A stretch of 64,000 nt of DNA from Corynebacterium pseudopelargi (GTDB taxonomy: Bacteria > Actinomycetota > Actinomycetes > Mycobacteriales > Mycobacteriaceae), in NCBI RefSeq assembly GCF_003814005.1, contig NZ_CP033898.1, forward strand, positions 1,364,001 to 1,428,000. Reading direction: 5' to 3'. A program made the position numbers and the translations under genes. The notes under the pieces are model-generated. The model ran no database searches and had not been told where the DNA came from. It saw nothing but the letters and a program-made list of their open reading frames with translations. Positions 35,833-39,397 of the stretch are shown here, piece by piece (position 1 is the stretch's first letter; each line of letters opens with the position of its first letter).

Positions 35833-36903
35833 TTAAGAAGCCTGGAAATACTTCAGCCCCGGGGTGCTAGAGGGAAGCGTTAGGGCAGGTTCGATGTCGC
35901 TTTCTGGCACCAGTTTGAAATACTCCAGCGCTTTGCGTACATGCTCTGCGGCATCAATATTCAACGGCCCCGAAGTCCACATGGCATAGGGCAAGTTGAT
36001 AAAACGCTCCTCTTTCACCGCAGGCAGGTTCTTGGTAGCCGGGTTCTTTTTAAGCTGCTCAATTTTTTGATCAAGCTCCTGGCCGGGATATTCCACAAAC
36101 ACAAACACATCGGGTGCTGCTTGAGCCAGACGCTCCCAGCCCACGCTTACCCACGTATCTTCAATATCTTCGGTGGCGTTGCTGGCATCGGCGGTGGCAA
36201 GAATGGCCTGCGGTGCTCCATATTTACCGGAGGTAAAAAGAGCGTCGGTGCCGGAGTCATACAAAAACGCCACTGGGGTTTGCTCAGCCTTCGGCGCAGC
36301 CCGAAGTGCTTCAAGGCGCTGTTGCTGATCCTTGATTACTTCTTCGGCCTTATCTTCATGCCCAGTTAAAGCACCAAGGTTGTGCAGATCTTGTTCCACT
36401 GCCTCCCAGGGATCCATGGTGCCGCGCGCAGAGGAATCGCCTTGGCGGCAAGCCTCGCTCAGGATATAGGTGGCAATATCGTGTTCTTGGAGCGATTCAG
36501 GAGTAATCCCCTTGCCCTCGTCGAGCCCATAGCCCCAGCCGGCCACATACACATCGGGGGCCTCGGCAATGATCTGTTCGAGTGAGGGGTATTCCTTGGC
36601 AATATCATCAAGCCCGGCCACCGTTTGTTCCCCATACTTCGCGCTCAGAATCGGGGTATCACGCTGGATGGAGCTCACGGCTTTGATTTGGTCTGCAGCA
36701 CCCACACTCAAGGTGCTAGCAATCAAGTTTCCATCATTGACCAGCATGTGCTCTGCGAGCGGGAATTGCCGTTCCTGGCCGCAGTTTTCAATGCTCACGC
36801 TTGCCCCCTCGGGAGCTGCTGCCTGATTGCTATCGCTGTGATTGGCGCAACTAGCCAGCAAGGCACCTGCGCACACAAGCGCTAGGGGTTTAGTAAGTTT
36901 CAT
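35833..36903 (-). CDS. ABC transporter substrate-binding lipoprotein, predicted vitamin B12 (BtuF-like)
   Basis: 356 residues. Lipobox LLASC with C19. The mature part is a helical-backbone periplasmic-binding-protein (class III: FepB/BtuF/FhuD): start VAGLDDIAKEYPSLEQIIAEAPDVYVAGWGY, middle long helix, end PYAMWTSGPLNIDAAEHVRKAL. Last gene of a three-gene unit; its start overlaps the ATPase gene by 14 nt. Sequence alone fits siderophores or B12; the cobalamin-riboswitch-like element upstream of the operon favours B12 or another corrinoid. Confidence 0.8.
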   Translation of the reverse strand: MKLTKPLALVCAGALLASCANHSDSNQAAAPEGASVSIENCGQERQFPLAEHMLVNDGNLIASTLSVGAADQIKAVSSIQRDTPILSAKYGEQTVAGLDDIAKEYPSLEQIIAEAPDVYVAGWGYGLDEGKGITPESLQEHDIATYILSEACRQGDSSARGTMDPWEAVEQDLHNLGALTGHEDKAEEVIKDQQQRLEALRAAPKAEQTPVAFLYDSGTDALFTSGKYGAPQAILATADASNATEDIEDTWVSVGWERLAQAAPDVFVFVEYPGQELDQKIEQLKKNPATKNLPAVKEERFINLPYAMWTSGPLNIDAAEHVRKALEYFKLVPESDIEPALTLPSSTPGLKYFQAS

Positions 36904-37777
36904 GGTCTTCCTTTCGAGGTTTTTCTAAAAGCAAATGCGCCCGCTGCAAAGGCGCATCGAGTCGAGCGTCGTTGGCCTGAGCCACATATCCCCTCACCCC
37001 AAAGGTCTGATGCAGTAATGGATCCTGCAAAGCGGTGACCGGGGCGTCGCAAAGCACCTGCCTGCCAAGGTTTCCCTGCTTTTCAAGCACCACCACCTGA
37101 TCGGCATAGCCAATCGCAAGATCAAGATCATGCAGGGTAATCACCACCGTTTTGCCCGATGCAGCAAGCAATTCGAGCAGATTGAGCTGGTGATAGATAT
37201 CCAGATGGTTGGTTGGCTCATCCAAAATCAGCACCGGAGTTTCCTGAGCAAACCCGCGGGCAATCATCGCCCTTTTGCGCATACCGCCAGACAAGGCACC
37301 ACAAGGAGTATCGGCATGAGCCTCTAATTCGCAGGTGGCAATTGCCTTATCGACGACCCCCTGATGCTTTTTGGCTGAGAACTCCCAAGGCGTTGTATGT
37401 GGCAGCCTGCCCAGCGTGACAATCTCGCGGACCGTTAAATCTTCGGCCAACTGCCCTTCCTGCGAGACCATCGCGATCTTTTTGGCGCGCTGCTTTACGC
37501 CCATCGTGGCCACATCCCAACGCGGCGGTTGGGATGCCTCTGCATCATCGCCGCCGCCTACCGCGCCGTGTTGGGCCTGGCCTAATGTCACCTGGCCTGC
37601 GAGCATGGGGTGGATGCCCGCCAAGGCCCGAAGCACCGTGGTTTTGCCGGCGCCATTGGTGCCCACAATCGCGGTAATAGTCCCAGGCTCGCAGCGAAAT
37701 GCCACATCTTCTACCACCGGGGTGGAACCAAAGCCCACAGCAAGGTTGTTGGCTTGAAGGTACAGTGCTTCACTCAT
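36890..37777 (-). CDS. ABC transporter ATPase, FecE/BtuD type
   Basis: 295 residues. Walker A GTNGAGKTT, Q-loop MVSQEGQ, signature ALSGGMRKRAMIARG, Walker B PVLILDEPTNHLD, H-loop LHDLDLA. Between Walker A and the Q-loop there is an insertion of about 30 residues (GQAQHGAVGGGDDAEASQP) not usual in this family. Start codon overlaps the permease stop by 4 nt; C-terminus overlaps the lipoprotein start. It energises import by the permease encoded upstream. Confidence 0.85.
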   Translation of the reverse strand: MSEALYLQANNLAVGFGSTPVVEDVAFRCEPGTITAIVGTNGAGKTTVLRALAGIHPMLAGQVTLGQAQHGAVGGGDDAEASQPPRWDVATMGVKQRAKKIAMVSQEGQLAEDLTVREIVTLGRLPHTTPWEFSAKKHQGVVDKAIATCELEAHADTPCGALSGGMRKRAMIARGFAQETPVLILDEPTNHLDIYHQLNLLELLAASGKTVVITLHDLDLAIGYADQVVVLEKQGNLGRQVLCDAPVTALQDPLLHQTFGVRGYVAQANDARLDAPLQRAHLLLEKPRKEDHETY

Positions 37778-38841
37778 CCTTGGCCTCCCTGGAAACGCAG
37801 CGTTTTTCTACCCATGAGGATCAAAAACAGCGGTGCGCCAAGCACGCCGGTGACCACGCCAAGCGGGATCTCTTGGGGCGGAGCAGCGATTCTGGCGAGC
37901 ACATCCACCCAAAGCAGAAACAGTGCGCCACACAGCATCACCACTGGGATTAGCCGGGCGTGCAAAGAACCCACCAGCAGCCGGCCTACGTGCGGGATCA
38001 CCAGGCCAACAAAGCCGATGCCACCTGCCACCGCCACCATCGCGCCTACCAACACAGCCTGAATCACAAACAGCAATTGGCGCATCGCATCAACTCGCAC
38101 ACCCAGCGAGGCCGCCACATCAGGGCCTGCCATCAGCGCATCGAGATTACGGTGCATGGCCAACATCAGCAGCGCAGCAAGGACCAACACCACCGCTGGG
38201 ATTAATAGCTTGGAAAAATTCGCACCGGCCACCGAGCCGAGTAGCCAGAACATCACCGACTGAGCGGCGCGAGGATCAGGGCCTTTAAACACAAGGAAGC
38301 TCGCGGCGGCAGAAAAGGCACTCGACATCACCACTCCAGTAAGGATCAATTGGAGCGGGTGAAAGCCACCCTGGAGCCTGGTAATGGCATAGACCGAGGC
38401 GGTGGCTGCAAGGGCACCGATGAGTGCCCCGCCAGAGAGCGCATAGATGCCTAAGCTGCTAAAAAGCCCGAAGGTCAGCACGGCGGTGGCGCCCACGCTG
38501 GCGCCGGAGGCAACGCCAAGCAAGTAGGGATCTGCGAGGGGATTTCGCACCAGGGTTTGCATGGCAACGCCCGAAAGCGCCAATCCAGCCCCAACCAATA
38601 AAGCGAGCAGCCCGCGAGGGGCGCGAAGCTGCCAAATCACGGCATCAAGTGAGGCATCGGCAACTTGCTCACCGCGCAGATGCGCCAGCACCACCTGCCA
38701 CACCTGCTCGCGACTACAAGCTACAGAGCCGAAGCTTAAAGAAAGCACAAAGCTCAGGCCCAGAAGCACAACAAGGGCAATCGAAAGCGCCAGCAACGCC
38801 CATGTAGAGCGGAGCTGACTCGTGGGCTTCGTGTCTCCCAC
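37774..38841 (-). CDS. ABC transporter permease, FecCD/BtuC family
   Basis: 355 residues with about nine or ten membrane helices. Family blocks: LRAPRGLLALLVGAGLALSG, GVAMQTLVRNPLADPYLLGVASGAS, VAVAGGIGFVGLVIPHVGRLLVG, and PPQEIPLGVVTGVLGAPLFLILM. First gene of the operon. Starts at GTG 38841 with GAGG 4 nt upstream. It forms a homodimer in the membrane with the ATPase. Confidence 0.85.
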   Translation of the reverse strand: MGDTKPTSQLRSTWALLALSIALVVLLGLSFVLSLSFGSVACSREQVWQVVLAHLRGEQVADASLDAVIWQLRAPRGLLALLVGAGLALSGVAMQTLVRNPLADPYLLGVASGASVGATAVLTFGLFSSLGIYALSGGALIGALAATASVYAITRLQGGFHPLQLILTGVVMSSAFSAAASFLVFKGPDPRAAQSVMFWLLGSVAGANFSKLLIPAVVLVLAALLMLAMHRNLDALMAGPDVAASLGVRVDAMRQLLFVIQAVLVGAMVAVAGGIGFVGLVIPHVGRLLVGSLHARLIPVVMLCGALFLLWVDVLARIAAPPQEIPLGVVTGVLGAPLFLILMGRKTLRFQGGQG

Positions 38842-38879
38842 GCATCCTCAATTCTGTGACGTGCACTCTCCCGGCAGTG

Positions 38880-39010
38880 TTCTTGTGCGCGAAGAACGCT
38901 CTGCTCGTTGTCTGGTTAAGGGGGCGTCAATCGGGCTTTCACCGTTGCGCGCCAGTCCCGGAATTCCACCGGTGTTCCCGCCTCCGCATAACCCTGGTTC
39001 GCGAAAACCT
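38880..39010 (-). promoter_or_regulatory. Cobalamin-riboswitch-like element upstream of the FecCD operon
   Basis: Read on the minus strand, 38932-38980 is GGGAACACCGGTGGAATTCC then GGGACTGGCGCGCAACGGTG and AAAGCCCG. This matches the conserved cobalamin (RF00174) core GGGAA..CCGGTG.AA.TCCGG..CTG.CC.GCAAC.GT.A. A GGTT lies upstream (about 39000-39009) and CCAGAC-AACGAGC downstream (38911-38925) in place of the CAGGA-ACCTGCC segment. The distal hairpin GTTCTT/AAGAAC (38881-38898) may be the expression platform. The permease starts at 38841. Call based on eye matching only. Confidence 0.72.
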
Positions 39011-39058
39011 TACCCAATTACGCCCGCAAAGATCTAACTGGGGGTACATTGCAGTGGT

Positions 39059-39397
39059 ATGAGCATCTGCGATTCTTCAAAGTCCCCCTTCAAGCCAGCC
39101 AAAGACGTCAATACCGCCTCCGTTGTTGCCACCGGCTTGGTCGGCGGTTGGCTCACCGCCCGTGAGACTGGCATCCGCCCACTGGGCGGTGTGATCCTTG
39201 CCGCCGCCGGCATCTATGCTGGCCGTTCCTGGGCTAAAAAGACCAATATCCCCACCACTGCAGCGCTGATCGGCACCTACGTTGGTGCGTTCGGGCTCAG
39301 CCACCCTCTGGCTAAAAAGATTGGCGCTTGGCCTGCTGTTATCGCAGTCACCGGTGTTGCTTCTGGCGCAGCCTGCGTGCTCAGCGATCTGAAGTAG
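39059..39397 (+). CDS. Small conserved membrane protein
   Basis: 112 residues with three or four short hydrophobic segments (VVATGLVGGWL, LGGVILAAAGIYAGR, ALIGTYVGAFGLS, PAVIAVTGVASGAACVLS). Similar small proteins are known only as hypothetical in this genus. ATG 39059 is preceded by TACATT 8 nt before it. No partner is visible; it is divergent from the transporter operon. Confidence 0.68.
   Translation: MSICDSSKSPFKPAKDVNTASVVATGLVGGWLTARETGIRPLGGVILAAAGIYAGRSWAKKTNIPTTAALIGTYVGAFGLSHPLAKKIGAWPAVIAVTGVASGAACVLSDLK

Follow-up and report, generated by a model that had tools for sequence, protein, structure and literature searches.

A probable shortened cobalamin riboswitch, possibly derived from class I, before a putative BtuCDF-type corrinoid importer operon in Corynebacterium pseudopelargi

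Riboswitches that control vitamin B12 importers are expected, from known cases, to act as OFF switches, and importers that combine a FecCD permease with a PF01497 substrate-binding protein usually prove to be corrinoid importers when they are placed under cobalamin riboswitches. According to PMC11260477, both B12 riboswitches of Mycobacterium tuberculosis are translational OFF switches, and class IIb is defined by UCU in J6/3 together with GGAA in J3/4. PMC9600381 places cobalamin riboswitches of skin species, including two of Corynebacterium, near genes for isozymes, for ABC and cobalt transport, and for the synthesis of cobamides; PMC5784534 reports that DIP1084 of Corynebacterium diphtheriae has an RF00174 leader that is transcribed, and PMC11071462 bears on Corynebacterium glutamicum. 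No description of the shortened leader reported here was found in the literature searched, which shows little, since subscription papers lay mostly outside its scope.

Our analysis concerns a 64,000-nt stretch of Corynebacterium pseudopelargi (contig NZ_CP033898.1, positions 1,364,001 to 1,428,000; here called the window), taken from a genome of 2.35 Mb in two contigs. Comparison of sequences indicates that the leader of one operon in it is, very probably, a shortened cobalamin riboswitch derived from class I that controls a BtuCDF-type corrinoid importer. The genes and the candidate expression signals are as follows.

37774 to 38841, minus strand: FecCD permease gene (btuC-like; PF01032, 299.9 bits)
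36890 to 37777, minus strand: ABC ATPase gene (btuD-like; PF00005), overlapping the permease gene by 4 nt
35833 to 36903, minus strand: substrate-binding lipoprotein gene (btuF-like; PF01497), overlapping the ATPase gene by 14 nt
38845 to 38849, minus strand: GAGGA, candidate Shine-Dalgarno sequence, 3 nt before the GTG start
39007 to 39012, minus strand: TAAGGT, candidate -10 element (TANNNT), picked by eye just upstream of the aptamer

The 5' spacer of the operon extends to 39058. A leader of the same short form precedes the orthologous operon in Corynebacterium pelargi, whose FecCD permease shares 95% identity with the one in the window, and in genome G060, which was taken as Corynebacterium gerontici. 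GAGG is kept in all three short leaders, and the spacing between the candidate Shine-Dalgarno sequence and the start codon is short. By eye, TATCAT stands at the candidate -10 place in G060 and TACAAT or TACACT in some class I relatives; a scan for the sigma-70 consensus was empty. A divergent open reading frame of 112 amino acids (39059 to 39397, plus strand), for which there was no Pfam or NCBIfam match, faces the leader, and by eye the leaders of C. pelargi and G060 also have DNA resembling this region next to them.

At gathering cut-offs, the Rfam matches in the window comprised three tRNAs and no riboswitch. A search with permissive filters over positions 38700 to 39150 (451 bases, 4227 families) matched the leader to AdoCbl-II (RF01689) with 33.2 bits (E=4.3e-6), against a cut-off of 36.5.

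38917 to 38997, minus strand: AdoCbl-II-like cobalamin aptamer core (RF01689, 33.2 bits)

AdoCbl-II was the sole family listed for this interval, two weaker overlapping matches of the same clan being omitted. The alignment spans model positions 1 to 81 of 81, several of its pairs being non-standard, and over the 2.35-Mb genome it was the better of two RF01689 matches (E=5.2e-6). RF00174 gave 19.8 bits (E=0.0066) on the same leader and did not reach its cut-off of 31.5. The leaders of C. pelargi and G060 scored 33.6 and 38.8 bits with RF01689, the latter above the cut-off. A preliminary description of this DNA had recognized riboswitch core blocks in order on the minus strand and had looked to a covariance-model match above the gathering threshold for support; the blocks are present in that order and the match is above chance, and the threshold was exceeded by G060 and not by the window. 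As a whole, the window leader folds no better than its shuffles (z=0.37), a result that is neutral toward a pseudoknotted aptamer.

On the minus strand the motif blocks follow one another as GGGAA (38979-38975), CCGGTG (38972-38967), TTCCGG, CTG, GCGCG, and CAACGGTGA. They fit into a structure of 32 pairs, drawn by hand and scored on the three short leaders.

38992 to 38995, minus strand: 5' arm of the outer closing helix, AGGG, pairing with 38919-38922, invariant in the three leaders
38919 to 38922, minus strand: 3' arm of the outer closing helix, CCCT (32-pair structure)
38979 to 38982, minus strand: 5' arm of P3, GGCG, pairing with 38923-38926, invariant in the three leaders
38923 to 38926, minus strand: 3' arm of P3, CGCC (32-pair structure)
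38975 to 38978, minus strand: J3/4, GGAA (from the sequence)
38958 to 38972, minus strand: P4 hairpin, CCGG-TGGAATT-CCGG (RF01689 alignment and 32-pair structure)
38946 to 38954, minus strand: P5 with L5, GCGCG at 38948-38952 (RF01689 alignment and 32-pair structure)
38932 to 38944, minus strand: P6, CGG...CCG, with a 7-nt loop; the accessory domain of class I is gone, leaving 3 nt between the anchors

Standard pairs occupy 99% of the 96 cells of this structure (window, C. pelargi, and G060), and the letters of the core hardly change between the window and G060, at a FecCD identity of 77%. The 3' side of the aptamer core reads AGCCCGA...CGCC...CCCT (38937-38919). The following CCAGAC-AACGAGC (38915-38903) had been read as an aptamer 3' half that departs from the consensus and is instead a linker leading into the hairpin P13. 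The GGAA at J3/4 is a class IIb feature according to PMC11260477. J6/3 reads ATTGA in the window and ATTAT and ATCA in the two relatives; with GGAA there and UCU missing, the window leader falls outside class IIb as defined in that text.

Downstream of the core lies a hairpin that the preliminary description missed (38897-38879) and whose loop is suited to kiss L5.

38879 to 38897, minus strand: P13 hairpin, GTTCTT-CGCGCAC-AAGAAC, with compensatory changes and a CGCG-loop hairpin in relatives
38887 to 38891, minus strand: L13, CGCGC, complementary to all five bases of L5
38874 to 38904, minus strand: lower stem of P13, GCAG (38901-38904) with CTGC (38874-38877), invariant in all three short leaders

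P13 shows three compensatory pair changes (two from U-A to C-G, one from C-G to U-A), and with one pair broken in G060, three of its four changed pairs are compensated. Three double changes were matched by 15 of 500 shuffles, in a comparison of three sequences of which two are nearly identical, and taken alone this covariation is modest evidence. The evidence across leaders is stronger. Among 33 loci examined for P13, a recognizable core was present in 28, and a CGCG-loop hairpin lay 25 to 48 nt past the J6/3 anchor in 25 of these 28; the expectation from shuffles is 1.79, and the hairpins have 21 different 5' stem sequences. The rule on loop and position was fixed after an earlier, looser hairpin search, in which shuffles equalled the window hairpin in 1 of 200 cases and the G060 hairpin in 16 of 200, and which picked other hairpins in some leaders. 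Kissing between L5 and L13 is thus suggested by sequence comparison, from the complementarity of the loops and the covariation of P13.

Given the riboswitches before its orthologs, the case for B12 control of this importer does not depend on the weak match in the window. A search of 242 Corynebacterium genomes with the FecCD permease (E<=1e-60) gave 128 matches in 104 genomes, all of which were used, 50 at 54% identity or more and 78 at 38 to 49%. The riboswitch places entered were 39 of RF00174 and 5 of RF01689 for the 50 closest loci and 48 for the 78 distant ones, and all resulting counts are lower bounds. On the same strand, a match of the cobalamin clan was located no more than 4 kb upstream at 36 or more of the 50 closest loci (the window included), and within 400 nt at 26 or more. 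At least 33 of these 36 or more are RF00174 matches above cut-off; the other three are the RF01689 matches of the window, C. pelargi, and G060. The corresponding figure for the distant proteins is at least 6 of 78 (Fisher p=2e-14, from counts without phylogenetic independence). At most 14 of the 50 closest loci had no listed riboswitch, including most of those at 54 to 57% identity; one locus so scored, that of G165, has class I-like motifs in its leader by eye. Some riboswitches stand farther off, at about 1.1 kb upstream, and in some of these cases the lipoprotein gene intervenes, as judged by eye in G208, G056, and G071. In a first scan, of 8 of 17 named loci, RF00174 scored above cut-off before the operon in six and RF01689 matched in C. 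pelargi, while L011 had neither model before its operon. An ortholog from Kineosporia (L015) has a core with a 70-nt accessory stretch and a P13 hairpin. Conservation of the leader at the same place in related species, whose lack would have refuted the reading of the preliminary description, is seen in the form of RF00174 elements above cut-off.

The three short leaders differ from these relatives in the spacing between the P6 anchors, where P7 to P12 are situated in class I. This spacing measures 3 nt in all three short leaders, 18 nt in G012, 38 nt in Corynebacterium sp. 74A (L010), and 70 to 114 nt in the remaining 23 of the 28. The window leader has no P8-P12 extension, as is characteristic of class II, and no P7-P12 accessory domain, the mark of class I in RF00174; the loss of the P6 accessory domain supports the earlier suggestion of a short or divergent subclass. 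This loss is insufficient to account for the low RF00174 score, because the leaders L031 (G041) and L036 (G165) also have 2 to 3 nt at this place yet reach 57.5 and 58.6 bits with RF00174, which implies that the outer helix and 3' side of the window leader have diverged too. These two leaders also raise the possibility that cobalamin riboswitches have been shortened more than once in the genus. The three rows with 3-nt spacing formed one clade (100/100) in a tree built from 37 FecCD proteins, and because the backbone was unresolved, the tree does not give the order of the shortening steps.

Wear in place of a class I element is the better reading of the origin of the short leader, although unproven. 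The P5/L5/P6 letters of the window (CTGGCGCGCA-CGGT...CCG) are those of the class I leaders of btu operons and differ from those of cobN leaders (CGGTCGCGCCACTGT...CAG). The nearest core is that of the btu leader of G012, with its 18-nt accessory stretch (0.806 for the window and 0.823 for C. pelargi); for G060, G012 and the best class I leader are level at 0.774. The agreement of the letters and of the nearest core favors wear in place, and the equality of the mean core identities leaves it unproven. For the window, these means are 0.651 to the btu class I leaders (24 leaders) and 0.659 to the cobN leaders (10), so that overall core identity does not discriminate between origins for the window and C. 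pelargi; G060 leans slightly to the class I btu leaders (0.699 versus 0.674). It is conceivable, if somewhat unlikely, that a class II riboswitch was instead copied in from another locus, such as a cobN leader. The genome of the window does contain an AdoCbl-II-like leader without the accessory stretch before cobN (29.1 bits), the mean identities would permit such a source, and 2 to 3 nt at the P6 accessory place were found in ten leaders of cobN-like genes, including the one in this genome, as well as in L028, L031, and L036 (the identity of the cobN-like genes rests on a model match for L003 and on inspection by eye for the other nine). The letters at P5/L5/P6 and the G012 core speak against copying, as does the distance of P13, which lies 38 to 39 nt past the J6/3 anchor in the short leaders, near the 31 to 37 nt of most class I btu leaders. 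Returning to wear in place, we hold with middling confidence that a class I element was converted at one operon leader into a class-II-like one, with L5, P6, and P13 (the latter save in sp. 74A) being kept. If this is true, class I and class II are not everywhere separate lineages, and the form of cobalamin sensed (adenosyl, methyl, or hydroxo) may have shifted with the loss of the accessory stretch.

The leader before cobN in this genome (L003:1501-1575; G000:C1:1225629-1225703, plus strand; below cut-off) has, by eye, an L5 of TCGCG and a downstream hairpin CGGG-CGCGCAA-CCCG. RF01689 matches below cut-off were also noted before genes of predicted secreted proteins, at L033, L041, L042, L043, L047, and perhaps L035; four of these six places were also listed as RF00174, two of them above cut-off. 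The secreted proteins look alike by eye. Those at L043 and L047 are without a Pfam family, and that at L043 is also without a match among solved structures. Possibly, an unrecognized B12-linked secreted family lies behind these riboswitches.

With regard to the substrate, the proteins are ambiguous and regulation is the main evidence, by which corrinoids are most likely. The NCBIfam cut-offs for BtuC and BtuF were not reached (203.7/334 and 30.6/234), and solved-structure searches singled out neither protein: HI1471, the heme permeases (HmuU), and FhuB outscore BtuC for the permease, and the best solved relatives of the lipoprotein are called periplasmic binding proteins only. Among the 120 best of 546 relatives of the lipoprotein, names include 'Vitamin B12-bindin...' (P0003) and 'corrinoid ABC transporter substrate-binding protein' (P0025), others refer to iron or Fe3+-hydroxamate, and most of those named are called 'ABC transporter substrate-binding protein'. 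The earlier assertion that operons of this type are routinely named after iron or siderophores is correct insofar as such names occur, and too sweeping in that B12-binding and corrinoid names occur beside them. These iron-related names, the solved heme and hydroxamate permeases, and the position of the window leader under all Rfam cut-offs would accord with a siderophore or heme importer behind a decayed, non-functional riboswitch relic. We consider this very unlikely, as the leader is more uniform than a relic would be expected to be, with a near-invariant core from the window to G060 and compensation in three of the four changed P13 pairs, and many orthologs have RF00174 riboswitches above cut-off. 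Control of an iron type, which would have told against the B12 reading, finds no counterpart in the DNA either: no DtxR-like site with up to 3 mismatches to the consensus was found in the 64-kb window.

The best NCBIfam models of the three proteins, TIGR03868, TIGR03869, and TIGR03873, would name the operon an importer of F420-0, with the permease best matched by TIGR03869. This label was rejected on the model cut-offs and on CofD. All three scores are far under their cut-offs (147.6/392.4, 265/437.35, and 200.7/372.4), a paralog at C1:2157589 scores higher (302.6), and among 198 genomes sampled across the phylum no match passes the cut-off. CofD, of F420 synthesis, reaches 20.9 bits in the genome against a cut-off of 257.45, which further disfavors F420-0 as the cargo and makes it extremely improbable.

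The genome encodes MetH (1162.7 bits, cut-off 1010.85) and methylmalonyl-CoA mutase (1131.4 bits, cut-off 876). A CobG-like protein falls just under its cut-off (222.6 versus 234.8), CobN reaches 234.8 of 822.05 bits, with only its N-terminal part within the locus examined, and CbiM (247.3 bits, cut-off 184.15) is encoded behind a class I riboswitch, indicating that cobalt supply is B12-controlled as well. Such corrinoid synthesis genes, and B12-controlled cobalt uptake, would also suit an operon with a real riboswitch that imports another B12-controlled cargo than complete B12, be it a cobalt chelate or a precursor such as cobinamide. This is unlikely in our estimation, given that CbiM already serves cobalt and that riboswitch-controlled FecCD/PF01497 importers usually carry corrinoids. 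The preliminary reading of the operon as a B12-regulated BtuFCD system thus gains support from a match that lies below cut-off here and above it in G060, from RF00174 elements in relatives, and from covariation in P13, and a real cobalamin riboswitch of shortened form before a corrinoid importer is probable.

With regard to the mechanism, a kissing loop joined to a ribosome-site or terminator hairpin had been envisaged: a candidate kissing-loop hairpin is there as P13, whereas a terminator scan found none, and no convincing ribosome-site switch emerged from free and aptamer-forced folds of the window leader or from consensus and single folds of the three short leaders. In the free fold of the window leader, P4 and P6 have pair probabilities of 0.01 to 0.04 and P13 one of about 0.23. 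Both in this fold and in the aptamer-forced one, the GTG start is base-paired. Pairing of the Shine-Dalgarno sequence with a C-rich stretch about 70 to 87 nt upstream is predicted for G060 (p~0.94) and C. pelargi (p~0.43) and is absent from the fold of the window leader. In the predicted fold of G060 (L052), the Shine-Dalgarno sequence and start (GAGGGCGCGTG) pair with the apparent 3' arm of the aptamer (CACGCCCCCT). If this pairing is real, the aptamer and the expression platform overlap, and the opposite switch polarity would be suggested.

We propose the following mechanism. The leader would be a cobalamin riboswitch descended from the class I form that precedes the operon in most close relatives, with P7 to P12 lost. 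The retained junction of P3 to P6 would hold a corrinoid, upon which L5 would kiss the loop of P13. Plentiful intracellular cobalamin would most likely lower expression of the permease, ATPase, and lipoprotein, and because no intrinsic terminator was found, repression would proceed through a block of translation or through Rho. From this regulation, the operon would encode an importer of the BtuCDF type that takes up cobalamin or other corrinoids, and not siderophores. Such a riboswitch would assign a likely substrate to an importer with ambiguous protein similarity and represent a Corynebacterium cobalamin riboswitch overlooked by scans at Rfam cut-offs, and the natural size series at one locus would offer a test bed for the role of P7 to P12 in ligand choice and switching.

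The window leader shares features with several described systems and differs from each in others. Like AdoCbl-II (RF01689), it has the P3-P6 junction without P7 to P12, GGAA in J3/4, and the potential for L5/P13 kissing; unlike it, it scores 33.2 bits against a cut-off of 36.5 and has a J6/3 without the UCU of class IIb. With the class I (RF00174) leaders of its orthologs it has in common the genomic place, the P5/L5/P6 letters, and a similar position of P13, and G060 keeps their AGTCCGA motif, whereas the accessory stretch is 3 nt instead of 70 to 114 nt (23 of 28) and the RF00174 score is 19.8 instead of 31.5 bits or more. Among actinobacterial elements, it resembles the M. tuberculosis ppe2 riboswitch, which PMC11260477 describes as lacking P8 to P12, with GGAA in J3/4 and no UCU in J6/3; the ppe2 leader, according to the same paper, acts through an upstream open reading frame and precedes ppe2-cobQ/U. 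The operon itself is like BtuCDF in joining a FecCD permease, an ABC ATPase, and a PF01497 lipoprotein, and unlike it in that the proteins of the window score under the NCBIfam cut-offs of BtuC and BtuF.
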